Source: Lachnospiraceae bacterium
Lineage (GTDB): Bacteria; Bacillota; Clostridia; Lachnospirales; Lachnospiraceae
Assembly: GCA_030526195.1 (NCBI GenBank)
Contig: JAUNDG010000010.1
Location: 16,475 to 80,474 of the forward strand
DNA: 64,000 nucleotides
Direction of reading: 5' to 3'
The notes under the pieces are model-generated. The model was not told where the DNA came from, ran no database searches, and worked only from the letters and a program-made list of their open reading frames with translations. The translations under genes were made by a program, and so were the position numbers. Shown one piece after another: positions 1 through 38,342 of this stretch. The stretch's first letter is position 1. Every line of letters starts with the position of its first letter.

Positions 1-641
1 TATTCGGCATCACCTTCGAGCAGGGCAGAAATGAGCTGGCCATCACACCGGAAACCTTTGCCAATGTGGTGACAGAGAATAAGGCCCTCACCGACGAGGT
101 GATCCGGGATATGATCGTGTCCCTCATCACCCTGAAATACACCCAGTCCAATTCCGTGTGCTTTGCCATCGACGGCCAGACCATCGGTGTGGGGGCCGGT
201 CAGCAGTCCCGTATTCACTGCACACGCCTGGCCGCTTCCAAGGCTGATCTGTGGTGGCTCCGTCAGAGCGACAAGGTGCTGAACCTTGAATTTGCCGACG
301 GCCTGAAGCGCCCGGACAAGAATAACGTGATCGACCTGTATCTGTCCGCCGATGATGACGAAGTGCTGGCTGAAGGCAAATGGCAGCAGTATTTCAAAAC
401 ACGGCCGGAACGCTTCACAGAAGAAGAAAAGAAGGCTTACCTGGCCGCTCATGCCACCGGTGTGACCCTGGGCTCCGATGCCTTCTTCCCCTTCTCCGAT
501 AACATTGAGCGCGGTGCAGCCAGCGGCGTGTCCTACGTGGTACAGCCCGGCGGCTCCTTAAGAGACGACGTGGTTATCGACGCCTGCAATGCCCACAACA
601 TGGTGATGTGCTTCACAGGCATCCGTCTGTTCCACCATTAA
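1..641 (+). CDS. purH: AICAR transformylase (PurH-type), 3' part only
   Basis: Only the C-terminal part is present. The frame is open from base 3, and the start lies outside the window. The product resembles phosphoribosylaminoimidazolecarboxamide formyltransferase, which formylates AICAR with 10-formyl-tetrahydrofolate late in purine synthesis. Visible family hallmarks are the SNSVCFA block, the GxGAGQQSR segment, the conserved SDAFFPFSDNI block, a QPGGS-RDD stretch and the typical FTGIRLFHH end. The first internal ATG (66) is not the real start, because family sequence continues upstream of it. The IMP cyclohydrolase half, if any, cannot be judged; many Clostridia carry a shorter transformylase-only protein. 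It ends in TAA 7 bases before the next gene, so the two may be co-transcribed. Confidence 0.9.
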   Translation, partial: FGITFEQGRNELAITPETFANVVTENKALTDEVIRDMIVSLITLKYTQSNSVCFAIDGQTIGVGAGQQSRIHCTRLAASKADLWWLRQSDKVLNLEFADGLKRPDKNNVIDLYLSADDDEVLAEGKWQQYFKTRPERFTEEEKKAYLAAHATGVTLGSDAFFPFSDNIERGAASGVSYVVQPGGSLRDDVVIDACNAHNMVMCFTGIRLFHH

Positions 642-2983: not shown

Positions 2984-5455
2984 ATGAAAAAATGGTTATC
3001 GACAATCCTGACAGCTTCCCTGATGCTGGGGCTTTTGAGTGTCCCGGCACTGGCCGAGCCTCTGGATCCTTCCTTAGAAAATGGCGCACCTTCAGGCGCT
3101 TCGGTTGTGACGGTCGACGGTGAGTCCGCCGGCGCTGAGATGCCCGGTGATGGCCTGGCCGGAACAGGTGCGGAGACACCCGATGTTTCGACCGGCACCG
3201 GTTCTGAGATACCCGGCGGTACTTTGACCGGCACCGGCACACTTGAGGGCGACAACAACACTGCCGAAGACAGCGCCCTCGAGGATCTTGAGGATCTGGC
3301 GGAGGGCTCCGGTGGTCTTATCACAGACATCACCCTGGAGGACCTGGACGAAGCTATTTCCGGCGGGCTCCTTGGTGAAGAGGAAGAGCTGTTGGAGGCT
3401 GACGATGCGGCACTTCTCACGGAAGAAGAGGCATTTCAGACAACAAGTCGAAGCCTTGAGGAATTGCTTGAGGCCTATCCGGATGCGCAGGTGCCGGCGG
3501 GCATTTACAACATCAGCACAGCCGTGCCTTCTTTTAATATCTGGGGCATTCCCGGTGGCGGCACCGCTGATCTTGCCGTGAAAATGGAACGCTACAACGG
3601 CAGCATGAGCCAGAAGTTTGTCATCACCCCCAAGGGGAACGGCCGCTACAGCATTGTGAATTATGCTTCCGGCCGGTCACTGGATATCGCCAATCAGGCG
3701 GAGACAGCGGGGGTGACGGTGAAGCAGCACCGCCGCAACCAGACAGCGGCTCAGGAGTTTTATCTCCGTGTGAGCGGGGACAGCATCATCTGCCTCACTT
3801 CTTATGTCCCGTTATGCATCGCGCCGGACCCCCTGGCCTACGGTCAGGAAGTGAAAACCCAGGCCGTTCGGGAAAATGAAAATGGCCTTGATGAGGCTCA
3901 GATGATCTCGCTCATTATCGCCGGGGCTGAGTCCCTCAAGGGCGGCAGCTACATGCTTCACGCCGCCGATGATGAGGGCTACGTGGTGACAGTGGCCGGG
4001 GCTTCCAAGGATACGAAGGCCGCGGTCCGTCTTGAGGGCACCGTCAGCGGCGCTCATCAGAAATTTGTGGTGTACGATGTGATCGGCGGCACCATGCTGG
4101 CCGCCACTTCATCCCATCTGGCGCTGGATGTGGCCGGCGGCACCATGGCCGAGGGCACAAAGCTTCAGCAGTACACTCCCAACAACACACCGGCTCAGAA
4201 ATGGCAGGTCGTGGCCAATGACGACGGCACCTACAGCCTCCGGTCGGTGAAGGACAATCGCTACTATCTGACACGGCAAAACCGTCAGACAGGTGCAGCC
4301 TCCGATCTTTGCATTGCCGGTAAGCTCTCCGGCGAAGCGGAGCGTTATCAGAAATTCAGCTTTGAGCGGCTGGATGCGGATCGGACACTGCCGGATGGTG
4401 TGTTCACCATCTCAGCCGCGGCCAATGAAAGCCTGGTGCTTGACGTGGACAGTGCTTCCCGTGAAAATCGGGCCAATGTGCGGATCCACAAGAGCAACAA
4501 CAGCAACGCTCAGAAATTCCGCCTGGCCTACCAGGGGAACGGCTATTACACCGTCGCCAATGTGAATTCAGAAAAGGTGCTGGATGTGGCCGGCGGGTCA
4601 TCTGCCAACCGCACCAACATTCAGCAGTATAAGCCCAACGGCTCCGCGGCTCAGAAATGGCGCTTTGTCAAGGACGGCAGTCGTTACCGCATCGAGTCCG
4701 GTCTCGGGAAAATGATGGATGTGGCGGACGGTCGGATCGCCAATAACAGCAATCTTCAGATTTACAAAAATAACGGCTCTGAGGCTCAGGCCTTCACCCT
4801 GGCGCCCACCAAGCCTCTGCCGGTGAAGAGAAAACTGGTGGCCATCGACGCCGGTCATCAGGCCCATGCCAACAGCGGCAAGGAGCCCAACGGTCCCGGC
4901 TCATCGGTGATGAAGCAGAAGGTCACCTCCGGTACCTACGGAAAATGGTCCGGTCTCAACGAATATGTCCTGAATCTGCAGGTGTCACTGCAGCTGCAGG
5001 CAGAGCTGCAAAGACGGGGCTACGATGTTTATATGGTGCGCAGCACCCATAACGTGGATCTGAGTAACGCCCAGCGCGCCCAGATGGCCACCGCCGCAGG
5101 AGCGGATATCTTCATCCGTATCCATGCCAACAGCTCAAGCAACTCCAGTGTCCGGGGTGTCATGATGTATCAGCCCTCCGGCAGTAACCGCTACTTAAGC
5201 CAGTCCGTCATCGCGGGCAGCCAGCGCCTGGCCTCACTGCTCATCCAGCATCAGTGCGCCGCCACCGGCATGCCCAACAAAGGGATCCTCACCGGCGATG
5301 ACATGACCGGCATCAACTGGGCCACCATGCCCGTCACCATTGTGGAAATGGGCTTCATGTCCAACCCCACAGACGATATCTACATGGCCTCCGCCGCCGG
5401 CCAGGCCGCCATCGTCCAAGGCCTTGCCAATGGTGTGGATGCTTACTATAAGTGA
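2984..5455 (+). CDS. Secreted N-acetylmuramoyl-L-alanine amidase with ricin-type lectin repeats
   Basis: 823 residues with a signal peptide (positively charged start, hydrophobic core, ALA-E cleavage region near residue 25). Residues ~30-160 are an acidic Thr/Glu/Gly-rich linker. Residues ~165-605 hold a long run of ricin-B-like units recognisable by repeated AQKW/AQKF-type motifs and LDVA segments, usually carbohydrate binding. The C-terminal ~205 residues are an Amidase_3 domain: the zinc ligands appear as DAGH, NE and RIHAN, and the catalytic Glu as VEMGF. It probably cleaves the muramoyl-alanine bond of peptidoglycan outside the cell. AAGGAG lies 11 bases before the ATG. It is followed by a strong terminator. 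Confidence 0.92.
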   Translation: MKKWLSTILTASLMLGLLSVPALAEPLDPSLENGAPSGASVVTVDGESAGAEMPGDGLAGTGAETPDVSTGTGSEIPGGTLTGTGTLEGDNNTAEDSALEDLEDLAEGSGGLITDITLEDLDEAISGGLLGEEEELLEADDAALLTEEEAFQTTSRSLEELLEAYPDAQVPAGIYNISTAVPSFNIWGIPGGGTADLAVKMERYNGSMSQKFVITPKGNGRYSIVNYASGRSLDIANQAETAGVTVKQHRRNQTAAQEFYLRVSGDSIICLTSYVPLCIAPDPLAYGQEVKTQAVRENENGLDEAQMISLIIAGAESLKGGSYMLHAADDEGYVVTVAGASKDTKAAVRLEGTVSGAHQKFVVYDVIGGTMLAATSSHLALDVAGGTMAEGTKLQQYTPNNTPAQKWQVVANDDGTYSLRSVKDNRYYLTRQNRQTGAASDLCIAGKLSGEAERYQKFSFERLDADRTLPDGVFTISAAANESLVLDVDSASRENRANVRIHKSNNSNAQKFRLAYQGNGYYTVANVNSEKVLDVAGGSSANRTNIQQYKPNGSAAQKWRFVKDGSRYRIESGLGKMMDVADGRIANNSNLQIYKNNGSEAQAFTLAPTKPLPVKRKLVAIDAGHQAHANSGKEPNGPGSSVMKQKVTSGTYGKWSGLNEYVLNLQVSLQLQAELQRRGYDVYMVRSTHNVDLSNAQRAQMATAAGADIFIRIHANSSSNSSVRGVMMYQPSGSNRYLSQSVIAGSQRLASLLIQHQCAATGMPNKGILTGDDMTGINWATMPVTIVEMGFMSNPTDDIYMASAAGQAAIVQGLANGVDAYYK

Positions 5456-5622: not shown

Positions 5623-6207
5623 ATGAACATCTGGGTCACCCGTCACGGTCAGACGGATCTGAACAAATCCCATCTTATGCAGGGCATCAGCGATCACCCG
5701 TTGAACGCCCGGGGCCTCGAGCAGGCCCGGGCCGTCCGGTCCCGCATCGGCGAGGTGACCTTTGATGCGGTTTATGCCAGTCCTTTAGACCGGGCCATCA
5801 CCACCGCCACCATCGTGGGCAACGTGCCCCGGGAATCCATTCAGGTGGACGAGCGCATTATCGAGATGGATTTCGGCCGCTATGAGGGCCGGCCCTACAC
5901 GGGCATGGGCCCGGCCATGACCCTTTACTGGGTCCTGCCGGAGCTTTTTCCGGCCCCGAAAACGGTGGAGAGTGTCGCATCCATGAGGGCCCGCACCACC
6001 TCATTTTTGAAGGAACTGGAAGATAAGGATTACGACAATGTCCTGATCGTCTGCCACGGCGGTGTGATCCGGGGCATCTGCGGATATCTGGAGGATCGGT
6101 CCAACGGCATCAAATGGCGGCCGAAGCCCAAGAACTGTGAGGTGCGGGTTTACCGATCGGAGAACGGTCAGCACAGTTTTGTGAAAGACATTCTGGCCGA
6201 CGTCTGA
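5623..6207 (+). CDS. Histidine phosphatase family protein
   Basis: 194 residues, phosphoglycerate-mutase-like fold. The phosphohistidine motif TRHGQT lies at the N-terminus (residues 6-11). The second conserved block, YASPLDRAITTA, lies near residue 50, an acidic EMDFGRYEGR block follows, and the catalytic CHGG lies near residue 147. Such enzymes dephosphorylate small metabolites (phosphosugars, alpha-ribazole phosphate, nucleotides) in the cytoplasm; the substrate is not readable here. An AGGAGA ribosome site lies just upstream. It stands alone, between the repeat element and the gap before the large fusion gene. Confidence 0.88.
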   Translation: MNIWVTRHGQTDLNKSHLMQGISDHPLNARGLEQARAVRSRIGEVTFDAVYASPLDRAITTATIVGNVPRESIQVDERIIEMDFGRYEGRPYTGMGPAMTLYWVLPELFPAPKTVESVASMRARTTSFLKELEDKDYDNVLIVCHGGVIRGICGYLEDRSNGIKWRPKPKNCEVRVYRSENGQHSFVKDILADV

Positions 6208-6403: not shown

Positions 6404-9400
6404 ATGAACGAACGAGCACAGAGAATAGCTGCAAAGCTTCTTGATATGTATCCGCCCAGGGAGGGGATGGTCACCTGCCGGGGCATTGCTGCCATGTGCA
6501 GCGAAAATCTCAATCTGTTCAGTGGTACCAGCAAAAGTGCGGATCAGTGGATGATGCTCACTTTTGATGTGCTGAAAGCACGTTACTTTCCGGACAATTT
6601 TTCCTTTGTCGGGACTGAAAATGAAAAATTAGCTGCCGAAGTCATGGCAGCTTTTATGACTGAGCATCTGGAATATGAGTTCCAGACGATGCCCTTTGAC
6701 CGTTGTCGTCATTTCCAATTGCTGACGAGAGAAGAACTGGTGAAAGACCGCCATTCAGACGAATACAAAGTCTTTATGCGCTGTCTGCAGGATCAGTACT
6801 TCCTCGTCTTTTTTCGTTTATCGGTGGAATGCACACCCTTTGACACCCTGGGCCACATCGCCGGGGTCCATCACGTGTCCATGTACATGGCCCGCCAGAT
6901 CGCCAAAACCAATCTGCCCATCGATTTGAGCACCGTTTCCGCGGCAGCGATCTTGCATGATATCGGCAAATTCGGGTGCACCCGCCAGGAAGCGGGCCGG
7001 GTGCCTTACCTCCATTATTATTACACAGCTGTCTTTGCCTCCCGGTTCCATCTGGATTACTTTGGCCACATTGCCGCCAACCATTCCACCTGGGACCTTG
7101 AGTTCGACAACCTGTCCCTGGAGAACCTGCTGCTCATTTACGCCGATTTCCGCGTGAAGAGTACCCGGGTGGACGGGAAAGAAGTGGTGATATTCAGTTC
7201 GCTGAAGGATGCCTACGACGTCATTTTAAATAAGCTGGACAACGTGGATGACGCCAAGAAAATGCGCTACGAGAAGGTTTATCGGAAGCTCAAAACCTTC
7301 GAGGATTACCTGGTGAGCCTGGGTATTTCCACGGACCTTGTTTCCGAACCGGGCCCGGCGGAAAGTGTGGCGGATAAGGCCTTTCTGGAGGGGCGGGCCT
7401 TGCTGCGCCGCATCGGTTTTGAGGCCACGGAAGCCAATCTGCGTGTCATGCATGCCCTGGATGCACCGAATGCCGTCACCGCCTTGCCGGATGAAAATGA
7501 TGCGCCTTTCAATCCCAGGTTTCTGCGCATTTCCCTTTCTATTATCGACAATTATTCCACCTACCTGACGGCGGCCCAGAAAAATGCCGCTGTTCGGTTC
7601 CTCTGCGAAATGCTGGCTCACCGGGACGGTGACATCCGTCGCCAGGCCGCGGGGATCCTGGGCCGGATCATCGCGCATTTCGATGCCCCATTTACGAAGG
7701 AATTGCCCGCCCAGGCCTCGCCCATCGTGGCGGTGAATGAATGGATCCGTGTCTGGAAACGGGTGCTGGCCCGGGTGCTGACCCCCGACTACAAGACCAC
7801 CTATCGCCACAGACGGTGGCTGGGCTTCACTCTGAAGACCGTACTGGCATCACTCCTTGATGAGCTGCCGGACAACCAGCGCAGCACCGCCGTTCACCAT
7901 GTGGTGACCCATTATAAGGGGCGGGTGCGGGACAACCTTCACTGGTTTATCCTGATGGAAAATGCCTCCGTGATCCCCTGGGACCTGTGCACCCCGGACG
8001 ATCGCCGGGTGCTGGAGACTTTCGCCCTAAAAAGTCTGGAATCCGAAGACGATGAGATTGTGGCCGCAACCCTGCGGTTCCTCACCATCTGGCGGAAATA
8101 CGGCTGGCCAATGCCCGAACGTTTCACGGAGCAGTTCCGGGAACGGCTGGCGGCGCTTCATGAGACCCGTCCAGCCATCAGGTTCCTTAAGGCTCACTTT
8201 GTCGATGTCGAAAATGGGTCTGCCTCAGACGAAGCGATCCTGGCACTCATCGGTCAGACGGATATCAGCGCCATTGTCACAGATAATCAGATGTCGGACA
8301 CCCCCTGGATCTTCAAACTGGTGCACATCGATATGCTGAACCGGGGTTTTGAAGCGGGCCTTTATCACGATGCCTTTAAGTATGCCGTGCATCTGGTGCA
8401 TTTGCTGCAGGTTGAGGATCGCATCGTTATCCGCCACAAGGCCGGGAGCAGTCTGGTGGCCCTGATGGGGGCTATGGGCGAACCGGAGCGCTACGAGATC
8501 GCTTTGGAAATGATCAAAGGCCTCGAAAATGGCGCTGATTCCTCCGTGGCTTATATGCCCAATTATCTGGGTGGCATCTTTGTGTACCTGTCCTACGAAA
8601 ACCGGAAGGAGCTGCTGCGGCGCTGCGCCATTTTGTTGGACAGCCCCATGCCCCGGATCGTCTGCAGTATCCTGCGCACCGTGGGTGTTATGCTGGATGT
8701 GGTGCTACGCTTCGGCCATGATATTCAAAAAGAGGAGATTCAACAGCTGGAGGGGCTTCTTTATAAGGGCATGGCGGATTACCGGGAGGAGATCCGCTGC
8801 GAAGCCTTTTATGAGACGGCCCATGACATTTTCTATAACACGAACCTGACAGATGAGCAGAAGCTGCCGCTTTTCTGCGATATGTATAAGAAGATTTACC
8901 ACTATCTGTCGGATGAAGAGGACCGGACTGAGAACAGCCGGTTCCATTTCCTGGAATACACCAAGGCGGCGCTGTGGAAGTTTATGTACCGCCTTTTTAC
9001 GGACCGCTTCGAGGAAACGGCCCGGATGCTGCCGGTTAATAACCGGGTGGTCTTTTATCCCGGCACCTTTGACCCATTCACGGTGAGCCATAAGGCCATC
9101 GTGGAGCTCATCCGCGAACGGGGCTGCGAGGTCTACATCGGTGTGGATGAATTTTCCTGGTCAAAGAATGCCCAGCCTAATCGGATCCGCCGCCGCATTA
9201 TCAGCATGTCAACGGCGGCTATGCCCGGGGTATATCTTTTCCCGGAAAGCATCTCTGTGAACATCGCCAATCCGCTGGACATCAAGCGCTTAAAGAGCGT
9301 GTTTGCCGGTAAGAATCTGGCCATCACCATGGGCTCTGATGTGGTGGAGCACGCCTCCGCCTATCGTCAGGAGGGTGAGGACACGGTGAAGACTCTCAAT

Positions 9401-11053
9401 CACCTCATTTTCCACCGGCCGGTGGGGGGCGATATGACCGTGGGCGAGAGAGAAGAGTATTACCGGTCCATCATTTCCGGACGGGTGGAGTGCCTTTCAC
9501 TGCCGAAGCAATTCGAGGCCGTCAGCTCCACCATGATCCGTGACAACATCGACCGTGATCGCGAAATCTCAGGCCTTGTGGACCGCAGCGCGCGGAATTT
9601 CATCAATGCCCATACCCTTTATGTGGGGGAACCGGTCTACAAGCCGGTCCTGAAAAGCGAGATTCTGACGGTCCTGCGGGAAAATGACGTGGCCTCAGGT
9701 CGCCGCTCTGTGGCGGTCCGCCGGGAGAGCGACAGCTGCGTGCTGGGCATCATCACCTATCGCCGTCCGCTGGAGGAGGAGAAGATGTACCTGTTGCCGG
9801 AGGATCGGGGCGAGCGGAAGCATGTGCATGATAACGTGCTGGTGATCACGGCCCTTCGCGGCATGAGCGAGAAGGATGGTGTCGACCATCGGCAGACAGT
9901 GTTGACGGAGTTCTTCGCGGCGGCCATCGAAAAGGGTTGCCGGGCGGTCATCACCTTGCCGCAGGAAGCCGATCGGGATATTTTAAGACGTCAGGGCTTT
10001 GTGGATCTTGGCGGTGAGAAGCCCTACATGGGCGTGCTGCTCAGAAAGCCCTTGCTGCTCTTTGCCAATGCCGCGGCGTATCTTAAGGCTCCCTTCAGCG
10101 AGGACCCGGAGGTGCGGCGGACTTTACGGAAATGTCACGAGGCGCTGCAGCGCACCATGGCAGATCTCTACCCAGGTTTCCTGGTATTCTCACCGGAGGC
10201 TGACGTCATGAACGGTCATCTCATCCGGCGGATCCTTGAAGAAAATGGCCATGCCGAGATCAGCGGCCGTAATACGCCGGGTCCCAACATGTGTGTGCCC
10301 TTTGGACGCTTGATGAACGGTCTCCGGATTCCGCGGTGTGTCACCAAGGATCTTAATGTGGAGAAGTTTTATGATGCGGCCCTGGAGCATTTTGAAATCC
10401 GGGAGTTCCCGTATTTTTCCGATATCCGGTCCCAGATGCGGGCCATTCGGTCCTTCCGCCGGCCGGTTATCCTGATCGATGATCTTTTCGATCGGGGCCA
10501 TCGTTTTGCCAACATCAAGCCCTACATCGATGAGGAAAATGTGCCCCTTAAGAAAATGCTGGTAGGTGTTCTGACCCATCGCGGACGTGAAACGGCGCTG
10601 CCCTTCGGCCTTGATGTGGAGGGCATTTACAACCTGAAGGATATCCGGGCCTGGTTCGTGGAAGCGGACCTTTATCCCTTTATCGGCGGGGACAGCATTG
10701 AAACGGCGGATGCCTCCGGGAAAGAAGGCCCGGTGCTGGCTTCCATCAATCCGATCCTGCCTTATCGGATGCCCCGTTTCCTGAAACAGACCATGATGGA
10801 GCGCTTCTATGTCTTCTCCGATCAGTGTCTTGAAAATGCAGAGGAGATCCTGAAGGTATTGGAAAAGGTCTATCAGGAACAGAACGACCGCTGTCTGACA
10901 GTGAAACGTCTCGGTAAGGTCATCACGGAGCCCCGGTGTCCGGAAGGCTGGTATCATGATGAAGAATCCCGGGGCCTTAAGCCCTCAGACTGTGTGGCTT
11001 TGGAGAAAAAGAGGCTTCGCCGGATGAAAAGCATTGCGGGGCTGTCGAAGTGA
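6404..11053 (+). CDS. Giant multidomain protein: HD hydrolase, HEAT-like repeats, nucleotidyltransferase, GNAT-like, phosphoribosyltransferase-like
   Basis: 1549 residues, cytoplasmic, no signal peptide. N-terminal part: an HD phosphohydrolase with the His, ILHDIG (near residue 184), a later His and an Asp in YADF all kept. Middle (~350-860): helical repeat-like sequence resembling HEAT repeats. Residues ~878-1050: a NadD/cytidylyltransferase-like domain (YPGTFDPFTVSH, a T-x-S-H variant of the (H/T)xGH site, and SSTMIR near 1045). About 1085-1215: a GNAT-like stretch ending RRQGFVDLG. About 1220-1480: a phosphoribosyltransferase-like domain with the PRPP-loop-like VILIDDLFDRGHR. Reactions are unknown; the mix points to nucleotide or NAD-type cofactor chemistry (inference). 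GGGGAG precedes the ATG. The next two genes follow on the same strand. Confidence 0.72.
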   Translation: MNERAQRIAAKLLDMYPPREGMVTCRGIAAMCSENLNLFSGTSKSADQWMMLTFDVLKARYFPDNFSFVGTENEKLAAEVMAAFMTEHLEYEFQTMPFDRCRHFQLLTREELVKDRHSDEYKVFMRCLQDQYFLVFFRLSVECTPFDTLGHIAGVHHVSMYMARQIAKTNLPIDLSTVSAAAILHDIGKFGCTRQEAGRVPYLHYYYTAVFASRFHLDYFGHIAANHSTWDLEFDNLSLENLLLIYADFRVKSTRVDGKEVVIFSSLKDAYDVILNKLDNVDDAKKMRYEKVYRKLKTFEDYLVSLGISTDLVSEPGPAESVADKAFLEGRALLRRIGFEATEANLRVMHALDAPNAVTALPDENDAPFNPRFLRISLSIIDNYSTYLTAAQKNAAVRFLCEMLAHRDGDIRRQAAGILGRIIAHFDAPFTKELPAQASPIVAVNEWIRVWKRVLARVLTPDYKTTYRHRRWLGFTLKTVLASLLDELPDNQRSTAVHHVVTHYKGRVRDNLHWFILMENASVIPWDLCTPDDRRVLETFALKSLESEDDEIVAATLRFLTIWRKYGWPMPERFTEQFRERLAALHETRPAIRFLKAHFVDVENGSASDEAILALIGQTDISAIVTDNQMSDTPWIFKLVHIDMLNRGFEAGLYHDAFKYAVHLVHLLQVEDRIVIRHKAGSSLVALMGAMGEPERYEIALEMIKGLENGADSSVAYMPNYLGGIFVYLSYENRKELLRRCAILLDSPMPRIVCSILRTVGVMLDVVLRFGHDIQKEEIQQLEGLLYKGMADYREEIRCEAFYETAHDIFYNTNLTDEQKLPLFCDMYKKIYHYLSDEEDRTENSRFHFLEYTKAALWKFMYRLFTDRFEETARMLPVNNRVVFYPGTFDPFTVSHKAIVELIRERGCEVYIGVDEFSWSKNAQPNRIRRRIISMSTAAMPGVYLFPESISVNIANPLDIKRLKSVFAGKNLAITMGSDVVEHASAYRQEGEDTVKTLNHLIFHRPVGGDMTVGEREEYYRSIISGRVECLSLPKQFEAVSSTMIRDNIDRDREISGLVDRSARNFINAHTLYVGEPVYKPVLKSEILTVLRENDVASGRRSVAVRRESDSCVLGIITYRRPLEEEKMYLLPEDRGERKHVHDNVLVITALRGMSEKDGVDHRQTVLTEFFAAAIEKGCRAVITLPQEADRDILRRQGFVDLGGEKPYMGVLLRKPLLLFANAAAYLKAPFSEDPEVRRTLRKCHEALQRTMADLYPGFLVFSPEADVMNGHLIRRILEENGHAEISGRNTPGPNMCVPFGRLMNGLRIPRCVTKDLNVEKFYDAALEHFEIREFPYFSDIRSQMRAIRSFRRPVILIDDLFDRGHRFANIKPYIDEENVPLKKMLVGVLTHRGRETALPFGLDVEGIYNLKDIRAWFVEADLYPFIGGDSIETADASGKEGPVLASINPILPYRMPRFLKQTMMERFYVFSDQCLENAEEILKVLEKVYQEQNDRCLTVKRLGKVITEPRCPEGWYHDEESRGLKPSDCVALEKKRLRRMKSIAGLSK

Positions 11054-11228
11054 TCAGAAAACAAAAATAAGGAATAGTCAACAACACAAAACGGCATGTT
11101 CTGCTGCTTGAAAGACTCAGAGCATGATCGGTGTACCCAAGTATTTGATTGGTTTGGTACCGCAAACGTAACAGACGACGTGCTCGATGGCACGTGTTGA
11201 TGACTAACAGATATGTGAGGCATATAGT

Positions 11229-12209
11229 ATGAAGACAATCACAAACCTCGGGACCCCGATGACGGTCCCGGCTTATGATATGAACTGGCTCATGAAGGAT
11301 GAGCAGGATAAAAAGACGATTCACGTAGCCGGCATCGGCCGGGTGGGCAGCACCCTTCTGATGGGCCTTAAGCTTTTAGGCCGTCGGGAACTGAAGGAAA
11401 TCGGTTTGTTTGACCTCAATGACAACACCTGCCTGCGCTGGGAGATGGAACTCAACCAGGTGATGGAAGGGTGCTCGGAAGAGCCGAGTCCGGAGGTTAA
11501 GATCCTCACAGATGAGGCGCTCTTTGACTGCGATGTTTTTATGTTCTGTATCGCCCGGGCTGTGCCGGAGATTTCCGATAAGAAGATCGATGTGCGTCTG
11601 GCCCAGCTGGAAGCCAACGGCGCCATCGTGCGTGCCTATGCCAAAAAGGCAGCGGATCGTGGCTTTAAGGGACTCTTTGTGGTGGTGTCCGACCCGGTGG
11701 ATCTGCTGTGCCGAGAGGCCTTCGCAGCTTCACAGGAAGGGGCTCATCCTTTCCATCCCTATCAGGTGACGGGCCTTGGCCTTGGGGTTATGAATGCCCG
11801 GGCTGCCTACTATGCCAAAAAGGAAGGTCTGCCCCGGTACCTTACCGAAGGCCGTGTTTTCGGTCCCCACGGTGCCATGCTGGTGGTGGCGGATTCCCTC
11901 GATGAAAACCATTATTCCGAAGGGGATTCCGACAGACTGCAAAAACTTACCACCATGGCCAATATGGCCATGCGTGAGCTGGGCCACCTGCCCTACACCG
12001 CACCGGCCCTGTCCTCAGGAGCCTACACCATCCTGCGGATCCTGCGGGGTGAATGGAATTACAGCGCCAACTACCTGAATGGCGTTTATTTCGGTGCCAA
12101 AAACCGCTCCGCCGGCGATCATGTTGAATGGGAAAATGAGCCGTTGCCGGACAAGTTGTTTGCGAAACTGGAGACCGTGTACGCATCGTTACGTGATTTC
12201 CGGGCTTAA
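11229..12209 (+). CDS. Divergent lactate/malate dehydrogenase-like protein
   Basis: 326 residues with an N-terminal Rossmann fold (GIGRVGS, near residue 38) and the overall layout of NAD-dependent L-2-hydroxyacid dehydrogenases. SDPVDLL replaces the usual NPVD, GPHG keeps the catalytic His region (normally GEHGDS), and an Arg is kept in VMNAR where LDH has LDSAR. The Asp that normally pairs with the catalytic His appears to be Met in this motif, so ordinary lactate or malate oxidation is doubtful. It lies 175 bases after the giant fusion gene and 103 before the flavodoxin-like gene, all on one strand, suggesting a shared pathway. Weak GAGG ribosome site. Confidence 0.7.
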   Translation: MKTITNLGTPMTVPAYDMNWLMKDEQDKKTIHVAGIGRVGSTLLMGLKLLGRRELKEIGLFDLNDNTCLRWEMELNQVMEGCSEEPSPEVKILTDEALFDCDVFMFCIARAVPEISDKKIDVRLAQLEANGAIVRAYAKKAADRGFKGLFVVVSDPVDLLCREAFAASQEGAHPFHPYQVTGLGLGVMNARAAYYAKKEGLPRYLTEGRVFGPHGAMLVVADSLDENHYSEGDSDRLQKLTTMANMAMRELGHLPYTAPALSSGAYTILRILRGEWNYSANYLNGVYFGAKNRSAGDHVEWENEPLPDKLFAKLETVYASLRDFRA

Positions 12210-12312
12210 CGCGTTGGCTAAGGTGTCTGTCACAATGGTTTTGCAGGAACCGACCGGTAAGACAGCATAAGCGACAATAGTGACCATGTGATGAGTATGA
12301 GGGGGACTGGAA

Positions 12313-13464
12313 ATGGCATTAACCGTCATCAGGCTGGATAATGTGACAACTGAAAATGGGCAGCGTCTCAAGAACCTGCTGGCGGGCTTGCCCCACCTGC
12401 AGGAGACACCGCATGAGGTATTTGACGGTGCAGAGGCATTTCTTGAGCAGATGAAGACACCGGAACAGTTCAAAGGTCGACGGGTGCTCTTTTGTGTTGC
12501 CTTGGATGATACGGGCACCAATGATGACCTCATGGATGTGCTGCGGTCGATCCGGCGTCAGAAAACCGCTTTTGACAGAAGCCTTCTGGCCCTTATTATC
12601 GATACGGCAGGAGACCTCTATTCCAAGTCCTCAGCCTGCGGTATCGCTTTGGCCATCAACAATGCCGGCGGTGCTATTCTGGGCGGGCCTCTGGTGGAGG
12701 CCACCGGGTCCCTGAAGAATTTCAAGATCAGAGCCATGAACTACAACATGTCTCTGGAGAATGCCTATGCCTTTGCAGCGGATCGTCTGGTGCGCCGCCT
12801 GTTGGAAGAGCCCCTTCGAGGTGAAGCATCGCCGGATCATTCAAAGTTGACTGAAAAACTTGAAAAACCGGAAGAGATAGATGCCTTTCCGCCTCATCGT
12901 CGGTTGCTGTGTCTTCACACCAACCATACGGAAAGCTCCAACACATTTTCGCTCTGGCAGATGGTGAAGGCGGCGTTGCCTCACTATATCGAGGTGGCAG
13001 AAATTTCCCTTGAAAACGAGGTCATTCACGATTGTCGTGGCTGTTCCTATGATGTTTGCCACAGCATGGGGAAGCGCACAGAGTGCTTCTTCCATGATAT
13101 CGTGGACACCACCATTTATCCGGCACTGGAAGAGGCGGATGCCCTGATCATGCTCTGCGCCAATCGCAATGATGCTCTGGCGGCTAACCTGACAGCCTTT
13201 ATCAATCGCCTGACCGCCATTTTCCGGAAGCGTGAGCTCTTCAGCGATAAGAAACTCTTCGCCATCATTGTCTCCGGATACAGCGGCAGTGATATTATCG
13301 AAAAACAGCTCATCGCCGCCCTGGGCATGAACAAGACATTTTCCATCCCGCCCCATTTTGCCCTGGCGGTAACGGCGAATGCTCCGGGTGAAATTTTCGA
13401 GGTGGAAGGCATCGAAGAACTGGCCGGTCGATATGCCTCCCATGTGGCCGGCATGCTGTGGTAA
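12313..13464 (+). CDS. Flavodoxin/NADPH-dependent FMN reductase-like protein
   Basis: 383 residues. The C-terminal half (from about residue 195) resembles the flavodoxin-like FMN reductase (WrbA/iron-sulfur flavoprotein) fold: LCLHTNHTESSNT at the phosphate loop, a CRGCSYDVC cysteine cluster near residue 240, EEADALIMLCANR and FINRLTAIF. The N-terminal half also has an alternating strand/helix pattern, including a GGAILGGPL loop, and may be a second degenerate copy. It probably binds FMN; the Cys pair could hold a metal or be redox active (inference). Good AGGGGGA ribosome site. Third gene of the block beginning at 6404. Confidence 0.62.
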   Translation: MALTVIRLDNVTTENGQRLKNLLAGLPHLQETPHEVFDGAEAFLEQMKTPEQFKGRRVLFCVALDDTGTNDDLMDVLRSIRRQKTAFDRSLLALIIDTAGDLYSKSSACGIALAINNAGGAILGGPLVEATGSLKNFKIRAMNYNMSLENAYAFAADRLVRRLLEEPLRGEASPDHSKLTEKLEKPEEIDAFPPHRRLLCLHTNHTESSNTFSLWQMVKAALPHYIEVAEISLENEVIHDCRGCSYDVCHSMGKRTECFFHDIVDTTIYPALEEADALIMLCANRNDALAANLTAFINRLTAIFRKRELFSDKKLFAIIVSGYSGSDIIEKQLIAALGMNKTFSIPPHFALAVTANAPGEIFEVEGIEELAGRYASHVAGMLW

Positions 13465-14646: not shown

Positions 14647-14949
14647 ATGATGAATAAAGACATTGAAAACAAAGCCTTAAACGATAACGACACTCAGGAA
14701 GTAACCGGCGGTATGCTGACCCCGAAAGAAAGCGACAATCTTAAAGTGGGTCAGACACTGTACGTTTCTGATGGTCTTGGTGGTTCCCTGGCCAAGGTAG
14801 AATACGTAGGCGGGACGCAAGAAGGTGCCTGGTGTTGGAAGCGCAAGGTCAGAGTGGTTGAAGTTTATAAGGTTTCCAGCAGAAATTACCAGGTGGGTCA
14901 GGAATACTGGGTGAGCGAAGGCAGTCTGCAACTCCAGGCAGGAAGATAA
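14647..14949 (+). CDS. Small protein with double-glycine leader
   Basis: 100 residues. The N-terminus ends in QEVTGG (residues 17-22), after a short polar leader with an LNDND segment. This is like the double-glycine leaders that C39 peptidase transporters cleave from bacteriocin-type and related peptides. The remaining 78 residues contain several VG-Q-Y/W strands (VGQTLYV, VGQEYWV), suggesting a small beta-barrel rather than a short amphipathic bacteriocin. One Cys. AGAGG lies 6 bases before the ATG pair. No C39 transporter or modification enzyme is next to it. Function unknown; export and cleavage are inferences from the leader only. Confidence 0.6.
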   Translation: MMNKDIENKALNDNDTQEVTGGMLTPKESDNLKVGQTLYVSDGLGGSLAKVEYVGGTQEGAWCWKRKVRVVEVYKVSSRNYQVGQEYWVSEGSLQLQAGR

Positions 14950-19691: not shown

Positions 19692-19757
19692 CATGATGTG
19701 GGTGTCAAAAGCCACCCTTTAACGGTCACATCACGGGACCCTATCCTGGTAGGATTA
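19692..19757 (-). ncRNA. Putative right end / omega-RNA 3' scaffold of the TnpB element
   Basis: Directly after the tnpB stop codon the minus strand carries three nested or adjacent hairpins: ATCCT/AGGAT (19743-19755), an outer TGATGTG/CACATCA stem (19694-19700 with 19727-19733) and an inner GGTG/CACC. IS200/IS605 right ends have such subterminal hairpins, and in TnpB systems this end is transcribed as the guide RNA scaffold. If so, the guide would be the AT-rich bases at 19691 and below on the plus-strand map. The exact boundary is inferred. Confidence 0.5.
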
Positions 19758-21173
19758 CATTTTTATAAAATCTGGATGTGTAAATACCAGTACATCATTC
19801 AGATTCACATTTTGCGGCTGAAACAGATCGGGATAACACTTTCTGCCTATATTGGCACTTCCGTTCAGATCTGCGTTCACGATTGTTCCGTCGTTGTTTT
19901 GGTATAATCCGTGAAAGCCGCTCTTTTTTGATTTCTCCTTGTGTTTTTTCGGACTACGGCGTCCAGAAAAACGATATTTGGTACTGTCTCCCTTTTTGTA
20001 AACAGGGATCGGATCCTGCATCAGAAAAGAAGCCTGTGAGGTGTAAGATTCCTCCTGCTCTACATATCGGATCCCGTTCCATTCACACAGATACTTCAGC
20101 ATCTTCCGAAACTGCTCAAAGGGGATCTGTTCAAAGACCTGGTTATTCTCCTTGCTCATAGATGCATTTTGCTTCCATCCGGAGTTCGTTCCCACGACAA
20201 CAGTGTCAATCCGATTCTCAAGGCACCAGCGGATGAGCCTTTTAGCGGTCTTGTGCATGAAATCCTTCATCTGATCCTGCCGTTTCCTTCCGAGCTTCCG
20301 ATATTCCGGTGTACTCCTGAAACGGTTGGTGGCACCGGCGGCCTGTTCCGACTGGAGTTTCGCACATTTTTTGCTGAACCACTGATTATTGCTCTTGATA
20401 ATCCCGCCCTTGAACAGAATTGCAGGAAGTCCTGCATTGTTCGATATGGCTGCGAAATTACGGATGCCCAGATCAATAGCGCAGATACGCTCCGGTGTCT
20501 CACTCATGAGATCCACTTGCGGGATGCCATCTTCTAAAACGATATTCACAGTGAAAAGATCAAAACGTGGCTTTACCATAACCTGCCGCAGGCTCCATCC
20601 GGACTTCAAGACCTTTCCAAGGACAAGACGCGCCTTGGTCTTGCCAAAGGAAAGTACATCCTTGCCCGACTCCCGGATAATCCGACAGGTCTGGTTGGAA
20701 AAGTCCATGGAACACATACCGCCGGACTTCTTGTAGCCGGGGAGTTTTGGCATTCCCAGATATGCAGAAGGGTCCAAGCGATACTTCTTCAAGGAAGCCA
20801 GATAAGAGATCATATCAGCCACGGCCTTGCGGATCATGTTCTGGGCACACTGTCTGGGAAGTGCAGGAGCCTGGTAATCCGGATTATCCGTCTTCAGGAA
20901 ATATTCATTCAGAAAGTAATAATTCAGGAGCCAGTTTTCCTTTGTCGGCATCTGAAATTTATCCTTCATCATGGGCAGTGCCCGGTGGATACCTTCGATC
21001 ACATCCCTTTCATTTGGCTGACGATCCTCCTGAACCTTCTGTATTCCGGTCATGACCTGACGGATATGATACAGGGAAACATTATAAAGATTGTTTGCCA
21101 GGTGGAGGACAGTGTCGAAGTAGGGATACAGTGGATGGTCGTTGTGGACTTCGATCTGCATGGTATGGAGCAA
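19755..21173 (-). CDS. tnpB: TnpB-type RNA-guided nuclease, IS200/IS605 family
   Basis: 472 residues from the TTG at 21173, which has AGGAGG 8 bases upstream; an ATG follows at 21161. The RuvC-like acidic triad seems intact: Asp in AIDLGIRN (about residue 250), Glu in VEQEESY and Asp in NADLNGSANI near the C-terminus. The usual CxxC zinc-ribbon pairs between the last two motifs are missing; only the GRR-x-PKKH / GFHGLY stretch remains. TnpB proteins cut DNA guided by an RNA from the element's right end and help the element persist. No tnpA lies in the window, so the element is non-autonomous. Its left end was not identified. Confidence 0.85.
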   Translation of the reverse strand: MLHTMQIEVHNDHPLYPYFDTVLHLANNLYNVSLYHIRQVMTGIQKVQEDRQPNERDVIEGIHRALPMMKDKFQMPTKENWLLNYYFLNEYFLKTDNPDYQAPALPRQCAQNMIRKAVADMISYLASLKKYRLDPSAYLGMPKLPGYKKSGGMCSMDFSNQTCRIIRESGKDVLSFGKTKARLVLGKVLKSGWSLRQVMVKPRFDLFTVNIVLEDGIPQVDLMSETPERICAIDLGIRNFAAISNNAGLPAILFKGGIIKSNNQWFSKKCAKLQSEQAAGATNRFRSTPEYRKLGRKRQDQMKDFMHKTAKRLIRWCLENRIDTVVVGTNSGWKQNASMSKENNQVFEQIPFEQFRKMLKYLCEWNGIRYVEQEESYTSQASFLMQDPIPVYKKGDSTKYRFSGRRSPKKHKEKSKKSGFHGLYQNNDGTIVNADLNGSANIGRKCYPDLFQPQNVNLNDVLVFTHPDFIKM

Positions 21174-21384
21174 GATTATCACCTCCTCTTTTTCCTCTGT
21201 TTTCATTATAATAGAACAGATGTTCGATTTCAAGAGAAGAGTATATTAGCTAAATAAAATATAGCGCTGCTAGTATATGTCGACTTAATGCCCGCTGCTT
21301 CTATAGTGTGCTTTTAATTATCCATTAAAGAAAAACAGAGAAAAAAGGAACTATTGACACTTGAATCGTTGTATAATAGGCTCT

Positions 21385-37976: not shown

Positions 37977-38231
37977 GGCGTCCTCCGCGAAATGTTTTAT
38001 GAGATAATAGAGTGGCAGACATTGTACCCGGTAGGTATCGTGCGTGTCCGCCTTTCAAAGATAGAGAAGCAGAGGGCGAGCCTCCGTTTAAAGTCTATTG
38101 GCGAAACAATGTTTCGGTAATAACTGTTCATTAGATTATGGTAATGGTGGCAGAGTTTTGTCAATGTATCTTGTTGAATAATCAGAATTGACACTCGCAT
38201 CTATAATTTGTACCATGACATTAAAACTTAA

Positions 38232-38342
38232 CCAATATAAGTCCACGATTGGGTTGGACGTTTCTACCGACTGCCGTAAACAGTTGACTATTGGCTATCT
38301 GCTTTGACATTTACCAATAGGACGCTGCGAGGCAGTTTTTTT
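38232..38342 (+). promoter_or_regulatory. Guanine-type purine riboswitch with terminator
   Basis: The aptamer spans 38232-38294. P1 is CCAATA/TATTGG, P2 is a GTCC-type stem with loop containing ATTGG, J2/3 is GTTTCTACC, P3 is GACTG/CAGTT with loop CCGTAAA, and J3/1 reads GAC. The C before the P1 3' strand is the base that selects guanine over adenine. The position-25/45 pair is G-C instead of the usual U-A. Downstream, TATTGG can instead pair with CCAATA at 38314-38319 (antiterminator), excluding a terminator CTGCTTTG/CGAGGCAG (38299-38306 with 38328-38335) followed by seven T. Ligand binding should therefore switch the gene off. Confidence 0.88.

Follow-up and report, generated by a model that had tools for sequence, protein, structure and literature searches.

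A 64,000-nucleotide stretch of a Lachnospiraceae bacterium genome (assembly GCA_030526195.1, contig JAUNDG010000010.1, positions 16,475-80,474 of the forward strand; hereafter, the window) raises the question of what is done by a block of three same-strand genes, the first encoding a giant multidomain protein, the second a protein of the lactate/malate dehydrogenase (LDH/MDH) fold and the third a flavodoxin-fold protein. A first-pass annotation, made from the letters alone, had read five enzyme-like modules in the giant and a dedicated nucleotide- or pyridine-cofactor pathway in the block. Comparison with related loci revealed that the three genes are a co-inherited set, and sequence and fold searches that the giant combines an HD phosphohydrolase motif, a HEAT-type solenoid and an adenylyltransferase of the NadD fold. 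The reading favoured here, at a probability of about 38%, is that the block makes and breaks a (di)nucleotide resembling nicotinamide adenine dinucleotide (NAD) and serves ammonium/glutamate redox metabolism.

Distribution and linkage of the three genes

Relatives of the giant were found in at least 526 stretches of genome_contigs, of which the best 80 were taken for study, so that the loci described below (L numbers; genomes have G numbers) are the closest relatives. Together with 4 loci from the genus they form a set of 84, and with 14 more from a class sample a set of 98. The class sample consisted of 391 evenly sampled genomes, searched at E values of at most 1e-30 for the giant, 1e-20 for the LDH-like protein and 1e-30 for the flavoprotein. 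The giant was present in 32 of these genomes, the LDH-like gene in 31 and the flavoprotein gene in 30; neither partner was ever seen without the giant, and both sets are nested in that of the giant. The exceptions are two drafts with a cut giant, G241 (~320 contigs; both partners missing) and G303 (~310 contigs; flavoprotein missing). Co-occurrence across genomes, which the first-pass annotation had named as a check, was thus observed.

Among the 84 loci, the LDH-like gene was found in 75, the flavoprotein gene in 63 and both in 62. In 15 of the 22 loci that lack one or both partners, the sequence ends less than 2.4 kb past the giant; L010, L052 and L065 carry the LDH-like gene only, despite room. 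The gap between the giant and the LDH-like gene has a median of 7 bp, with the same strand throughout (63 loci), and the flavoprotein gene shares the strand of the giant in 49 of 50 cases. The three proteins give concordant distance trees (46 loci; rho 0.77, 0.74 and 0.56, with 0 of 500 permutations each), as plain vertical descent would also yield. Two genomes (G219 and G262) hold two full giants and a single copy of each partner. A further genome, G006 (L003 and L006), has the flavoprotein gene behind one of its two giants and the LDH-like gene behind the other. The second giant copies at L103 and L105 have no partner genes in the fetched stretch and adjoin a divergent gene of ~310 residues, which probably accounts for the two APH-family matches among 110 upstream proteins.

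The giant alignment comprised 79 rows, namely the window and 78 of the 84 loci (L016, L043, L044, L064 and L079 were left out for the odd length of their longest open reading frame, and L081 because its longest frame is not the giant). Its sources were 71 Bacillota records, one Spirochaetota and one Chloroflexota metagenome-assembled genome, and six unplaced records. Anaerotignum neopropionicum (L029) is one of the carriers. Within the genus, full-length giants occurred in 4 of 42 genomes (five loci, the window genome counted). In a quick tree, where the window and L005 form long branches of unsure placement, these carriers lie in two widely separated regions, and such scatter suggests transfer or repeated loss.

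Domains of the giant and residues of its partners

The open reading frame of gene 1 is a real multidomain protein (Table 1). Its HD domain scores above the Pfam cut-off, lies in a segment that is helical in the AlphaFold model, and retains the metal ligands of the H-HD-H-D motif noted at first sight (H151, H185, D186, H227 and D248), as well as H204, in 79/79 giants; against profiles of solved structures, the HD region gave nothing below E 0.07. The adenylyltransferase domain matches the whole NadD/NMNAT fold, and its alignment in 16 giants with eight NadD proteins from carrier genomes was full length (hhalign, probability 98.7). The nucleotidyltransferase call, based on TFDPFTVSH and SSTMIR, is upheld: the giant shares the GTFDP, GxD and SSTxIR motifs with the NadD/NMNAT family (TIGR00482), and G887, D890, H896, K921, D979, S1041 and R1046 are present in every one of the 79 sequences.

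NadD enzymes carry an HxGH motif with both histidines, a tryptophan that stacks on nicotinate, and a YTxxTL motif. In contrast, all 79 giants have Ser or Thr for the first His and Tyr in the column of the Trp, and YTxxTL is replaced by NIANPxDL. Because the former residues are invariant and the latter replaced, the active site has kept its nucleotide side and changed on the acceptor side. Scores of the giants listed against TIGR00482 range from 31 to 60 bits (37.6 for the window), below the curated cut-off of 112.45. An ordinary NadD above this cut-off is encoded in 33 of 35 carrier genomes, which rules out the giant as a general NadD replacement; the carriers without one are G121 (98% complete) and G354 (an 86% complete draft).

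Of the five modules first proposed, HD is thus supported by sequence and HEAT and NadD by fold, while the GNAT-like and phosphoribosyltransferase (PRTase)-like modules fared less well. In structure prediction, also suggested at the outset as a check, the fold-search matches listed are occupied by NadD and HEAT (the solenoid matches including, among others, the PP2A scaffold and importins), with HD, PRTase and GNAT not appearing there in their own right. Domain-wise profile scans of the giant covered 39 of the 79 aligned sequences. In the weakly conserved GNAT-like region, Pfam found Acetyltransf_1 in two (best E 0.06) and LytR_C in five (best E 5.8e-6), the PDB profile search returned designed proteins only, and Foldseek matched Elp3 chains at E 5e-7 with a root-mean-square deviation of 26 over 374 columns, which is not a rigid match. 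In the PRTase-like region, strands alternate with helices in the AlphaFold model, Pribosyltran was matched in 21 of the 39 sequences at E up to 1 (best 8.1e-4; the window copy without a match), and PDB profiles matched at E 0.096 or worse only. The phosphoribosyl pyrophosphate (PRPP) loop of standard type I PRTases is of the DDxxxTGGT type. The corresponding loop of the giants, initially read as a PRPP loop from the window stretch VILIDDLFD, keeps two acidic residues (in 78 and 77 of the 79), but these are mostly followed by xxHKGxR, which is not of this type. The window giant also departs at one near-constant site, with Asp1363 against His in 76 of 79.

Gene 2 matches PDB profiles of the LDH/MDH family from E 3e-10, with M188 aligned to the catalytic Asp. 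In the alignment of 58 sequences (the window and 57 of 71 open reading frames), M188, H214, R191 and R123 are invariant, so that the Asp-His pair of these enzymes has lost its Asp and kept its His. Gene 2 shares the NAD-binding half and the substrate Arg and His with L-lactate and malate dehydrogenases and differs by the Asp-to-Met exchange and, in 26 of the 58, by a longer N-terminal part (83-142 residues ahead of window residue 30, versus 26-47 elsewhere), which the window copy does not have. Judged by these residues, its product would no longer be a normal lactate or malate dehydrogenase, in agreement with the earlier description of an altered LDH-like protein. The window copy carries Arg38 at a near-constant site occupied by Asp in the 57 others.

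The third gene, correctly anticipated as flavodoxin-like, encodes what is probably an iron-sulfur flavoprotein: its four cysteines are found in 53/53 aligned sequences (the window and 52 of 58 open reading frames), which suggests a putative 4Fe-4S cluster. It has the FMN_red domain and four cysteines in common with Isf-type iron-sulfur flavoproteins of the FMN reductase family, and differs from them in the spacing C-x2-C-x4-C-x8-C, in an N-terminal half of ~190 residues without a Pfam match, and in giving nothing at E 0.001 against PDB profiles.

Table 1. Features of the three-gene block and of other parts of the window (positions within the window; residue limits of the giant's domains approximate)
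Feature	Position	Strand	Basis or remark
Gene 1, giant multidomain protein, 1549 residues	6404-11053	+	Open reading frame
HD phosphohydrolase domain, residues 130-310; H151, H185, D186, H204, H227, D248	6791-7333	+	Pfam HD, E 2e-5
HEAT-type alpha-solenoid, residues 330-875	7391-9028	+	Fold
NadD-type adenylyltransferase domain with altered acceptor site, residues 878-1077	9035-9634	+	Fold
GNAT-like domain without acetyl-CoA loop, residues 1086-1221	9659-10066	+	Weaker support
Type I PRTase-like domain with altered PRPP loop DDxxHKGxR, residues 1235-1432	10106-10699	+	Weaker support
C-terminal helical tail, residues 1465-1544	10796-11035	+	AlphaFold model
Gene 2, NAD-binding protein of the LDH/MDH fold with Met188 in place of the catalytic Asp	11229-12209	+	Pfam Ldh_1_N, E 1.1e-6
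Gene 3, flavodoxin-fold protein; C241, C244, C249, C258	12313-13464	+	FMN_red domain at 12904-13368, Pfam E 9.1e-14
His_Phos gene upstream of the block	5623-6207
823-residue protein	2984-5455		Ricin-type lectin repeats and Amidase_3 domain; start signal-peptide-like by eye
191-residue open reading frame	66-641		Match to the AICARFT/IMPCHase model confined to its C-terminal end (255-311 of 311 positions)
100-residue open reading frame	14647-14949		Double-glycine leader look (VTGGM), no Pfam match; possible small exported peptide
TnpB-type transposon nuclease gene	19755-21233	-	OrfB_IS605 E 2.1e-21, Cas12f1-like TNB E 3.5e-9; ~6 kb past the block
Purine riboswitch aptamer	38213-38310		60 bits

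Ammonium and glutamate genes around the block

The block has an ammonium/glutamate context, which had escaped the first-pass annotation. Neighbouring open reading frames were chosen mechanically, so that some are spurious and some genes may have been missed. A glutamate dehydrogenase gene (gdhA) was found in 20 of the 98 loci (19 of the 84 and one of the 14 class-sample loci), lying upstream and co-directional (L003, L005, L007, L008, L009, L012), upstream and divergent (L013, L018, L019, L025, L047, L063), on the opposite strand with one gene between (L010), or downstream (L011, L026, L044, L053, L068, L075, L104). On the tree, these arrangements require at least seven changes, and presence or absence at least five (51 rows with enough flank; no shuffled control). 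Among the 35 carrier genomes, 21 have gdhA, and in six (G002, G006, G173, G196, G219, G262) it lies within 5 kb of the block.

Other nitrogen genes also recur. In two genomes (L101 and L102), an ammonium transporter gene on the opposite strand and three further genes, which by eye form a split archaeal-type glutamate synthase, stand between the giant and gene 2; with curated models at L101, amt is above its cut-off and, of the three synthase genes, the central one alone matches, below cut-off. Curated cut-offs were exceeded by a gltA-type NADPH glutamate synthase and an NfnA-type subunit at L111, L-serine ammonia-lyase alpha at L110, D-serine ammonia-lyase at L051 and gltS at L044, and the curated matches of a symporter at L011 all remained below theirs. 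Pfam counts refer to the first 25 of 131 families upstream (110 proteins) and the first 25 of 138 downstream (108 proteins). Among the families so listed, the glutamate dehydrogenase N domain occurs in 12 upstream proteins, and downstream GATase_7 in three and glutamate dehydrogenase, GSIII_N (type III glutamine synthetase) and YcbB in two each.

At gathering score, Rfam gave no match at the block in the window or in the 10 fetched loci scanned; one T-box lies behind the block at L014. The upstream His_Phos gene is not part of the block, its protein having matched picked open reading frames at two loci only, L045 (there at the end of the locus) and L088, the locus of the window. A known anti-phage defence system was likewise rejected, PADLOC having returned three weak matches to the giant (two Cas3-type and one OloA, best E 0.0078) and none to genes 2 and 3, and so was a phage gene, since the viral scan gave two short matches, both on a single contig and within the adenylyltransferase stretch.

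Proposed function and known systems

In anaerobes, the metabolism of ammonium and glutamate is linked to NAD(P)H and ferredoxin. In such a setting, the likely one here, this three-gene module of Clostridia and relatives may work as a single unit, its closeness to ammonium and glutamate genes reflecting a shared function. The PRTase-like domain would make or bind a mononucleotide, the NadD-type domain would couple it to adenylate or another nucleotidyl group, the HD domain would cleave the product, and the HEAT scaffold would hold the domains of the giant together with the partner proteins. The product is expected to differ from nicotinate adenine dinucleotide, given the changed acceptor site and the normal NadD, above cut-off, of 33 of the 35 carriers. 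The LDH-fold protein and the iron-sulfur flavoprotein, seen only with the giant in the class sample, would be redox partners, likely users or sensors of this product. A make-and-break cycle is judged most likely because an HD and a NadD domain in one chain have a precedent in NadD-YqeK fusions, the HD domain of which cleaves faulty dinucleotides (PMC9426524). The cofactor pathway of the first-pass annotation thus stands in part: the gene set, the NadD fold and the HD domain support it, but the acceptor site is altered and the giant is not simply the NadD of the cell.

Several observations weigh against this make-and-break cycle. Four loci (L040, L057, L074, L077) have room for the partners and hold neither nearby. 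The GNAT-like region is equivocal, and with its non-standard loop the support for a PRTase domain is moderate. Compared with seven HD proteins adjoining NadD in carrier genomes (assumed to be YqeK, one truncated), the giant HD aligned over 43 columns with a probability of 53 (hhalign), a likeness that seems no more than generic. G121, 98% complete and without a NadD above cut-off, is a genome where the giant could substitute for it. As for the nitrogen setting, gdhA is not commoner in carriers (18 of the 32 in the class sample) than overall (254 of the 391), which rules out an obligate dependence of the block on it; the window genome carries its gdhA on a contig (C29) other than that of the block, at many loci none of the nitrogen genes looked for turned up, and MgtE, with five of the 108 proteins, leads the downstream families listed.

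The main rival, which accounts for the same facts nearly as well as the make-and-break cycle and yet must be called unlikely, is a regulator that controls nitrogen metabolism by nucleotidylation, analogous to GlnD/GlnE in function but made of unrelated parts. Here the NadD-type domain would attach a nucleotide to a small ligand or to a protein, such as glutamate dehydrogenase or the partners of the giant, and the HD domain would remove it, with the HEAT repeats binding the target and the LDH-fold protein and iron-sulfur flavoprotein reporting NAD(H) and redox state. An HD domain and a nucleotidyltransferase within one chain, the likeness of the solenoid to PP2A scaffold and importins among others, an Asp-less LDH fold with a retained NAD loop, as befits a sensor, and the ammonium/glutamate neighbours all agree with such a regulator; HxGH nucleotidyltransferases are, however, mostly small-molecule enzymes, GlnD and GlnE have a different nucleotidyltransferase fold, and carriers are not enriched in gdhA. 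That same lack of enrichment, with the many loci devoid of the nitrogen genes sought, would suit a pathway that has no tie to nitrogen and is complete in itself, be it catabolic or biosynthetic, with all three proteins acting as catalysts and the nitrogen genes near by clade-wise synteny. This is improbable, given that gdhA adjoins the block in several lineages and in differing orientations and that other nitrogen genes recur near it. The precedent of the NadD-YqeK fusions (PMC9426524) could instead point to metabolite damage control, by a complex that acts on pyridine nucleotides or on cofactors related to them, with HD removing faulty dinucleotides, the adenylyltransferase rebuilding them and the redox partners repairing reduced forms. 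PF01256 (the NAD(P)H-hydrate dehydratase family) does occur in two of the 108 downstream neighbours, but these are likely L018 and L025, of one clade and so perhaps plain synteny, and the altered acceptor site speaks against nicotinate mononucleotide itself; such a complex seems about equally improbable.

A bolder and rather doubtful proposition spans both the favoured make-and-break cycle and its main rival: that Clostridia invented a dedicated nucleotide circuit, be it an NAD-like dinucleotide of their own or a switch acting by nucleotidylation of proteins, out of NadD, HD, HEAT, PRTase-like, LDH-fold and iron-sulfur flavoprotein parts, and that it sets ammonium/glutamate flux by redox state where GlnD, GlnE and PII act elsewhere. 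A new nucleotide or nucleotidylation switch, if true, would add a control layer over ammonia and glutamate in fermenting bacteria, which the genes and residues named here make testable. In line with the initial remark that no characterised pathway has this set, literature searches on the architecture or its context found no paper describing it (subscription journals being mostly outside coverage), so that no described function was found for this set of co-occurring genes, of which public genomes contain at least 526 related stretches.

Besides NadD itself, the lactate and malate dehydrogenases and the Isf-type flavoproteins compared above, two known systems come close. The NadD-YqeK fusion (JCVISYN3A_0380; PMC9426524) likewise has an HD phosphohydrolase in one chain with a NadD-type adenylyltransferase; the giant differs in having HD first, a long HEAT solenoid between the two and GNAT-like and PRTase-like regions after them, and in coexisting with an ordinary NadD in nearly all carriers. 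A second likeness is one of principle and not of fold. GlnD and GlnE, the bifunctional enzymes of nitrogen control, have an unrelated nucleotidyltransferase fold, and what the giant would share with them is the idea of attaching and removing a nucleotide within one protein, here linked to nitrogen genes.

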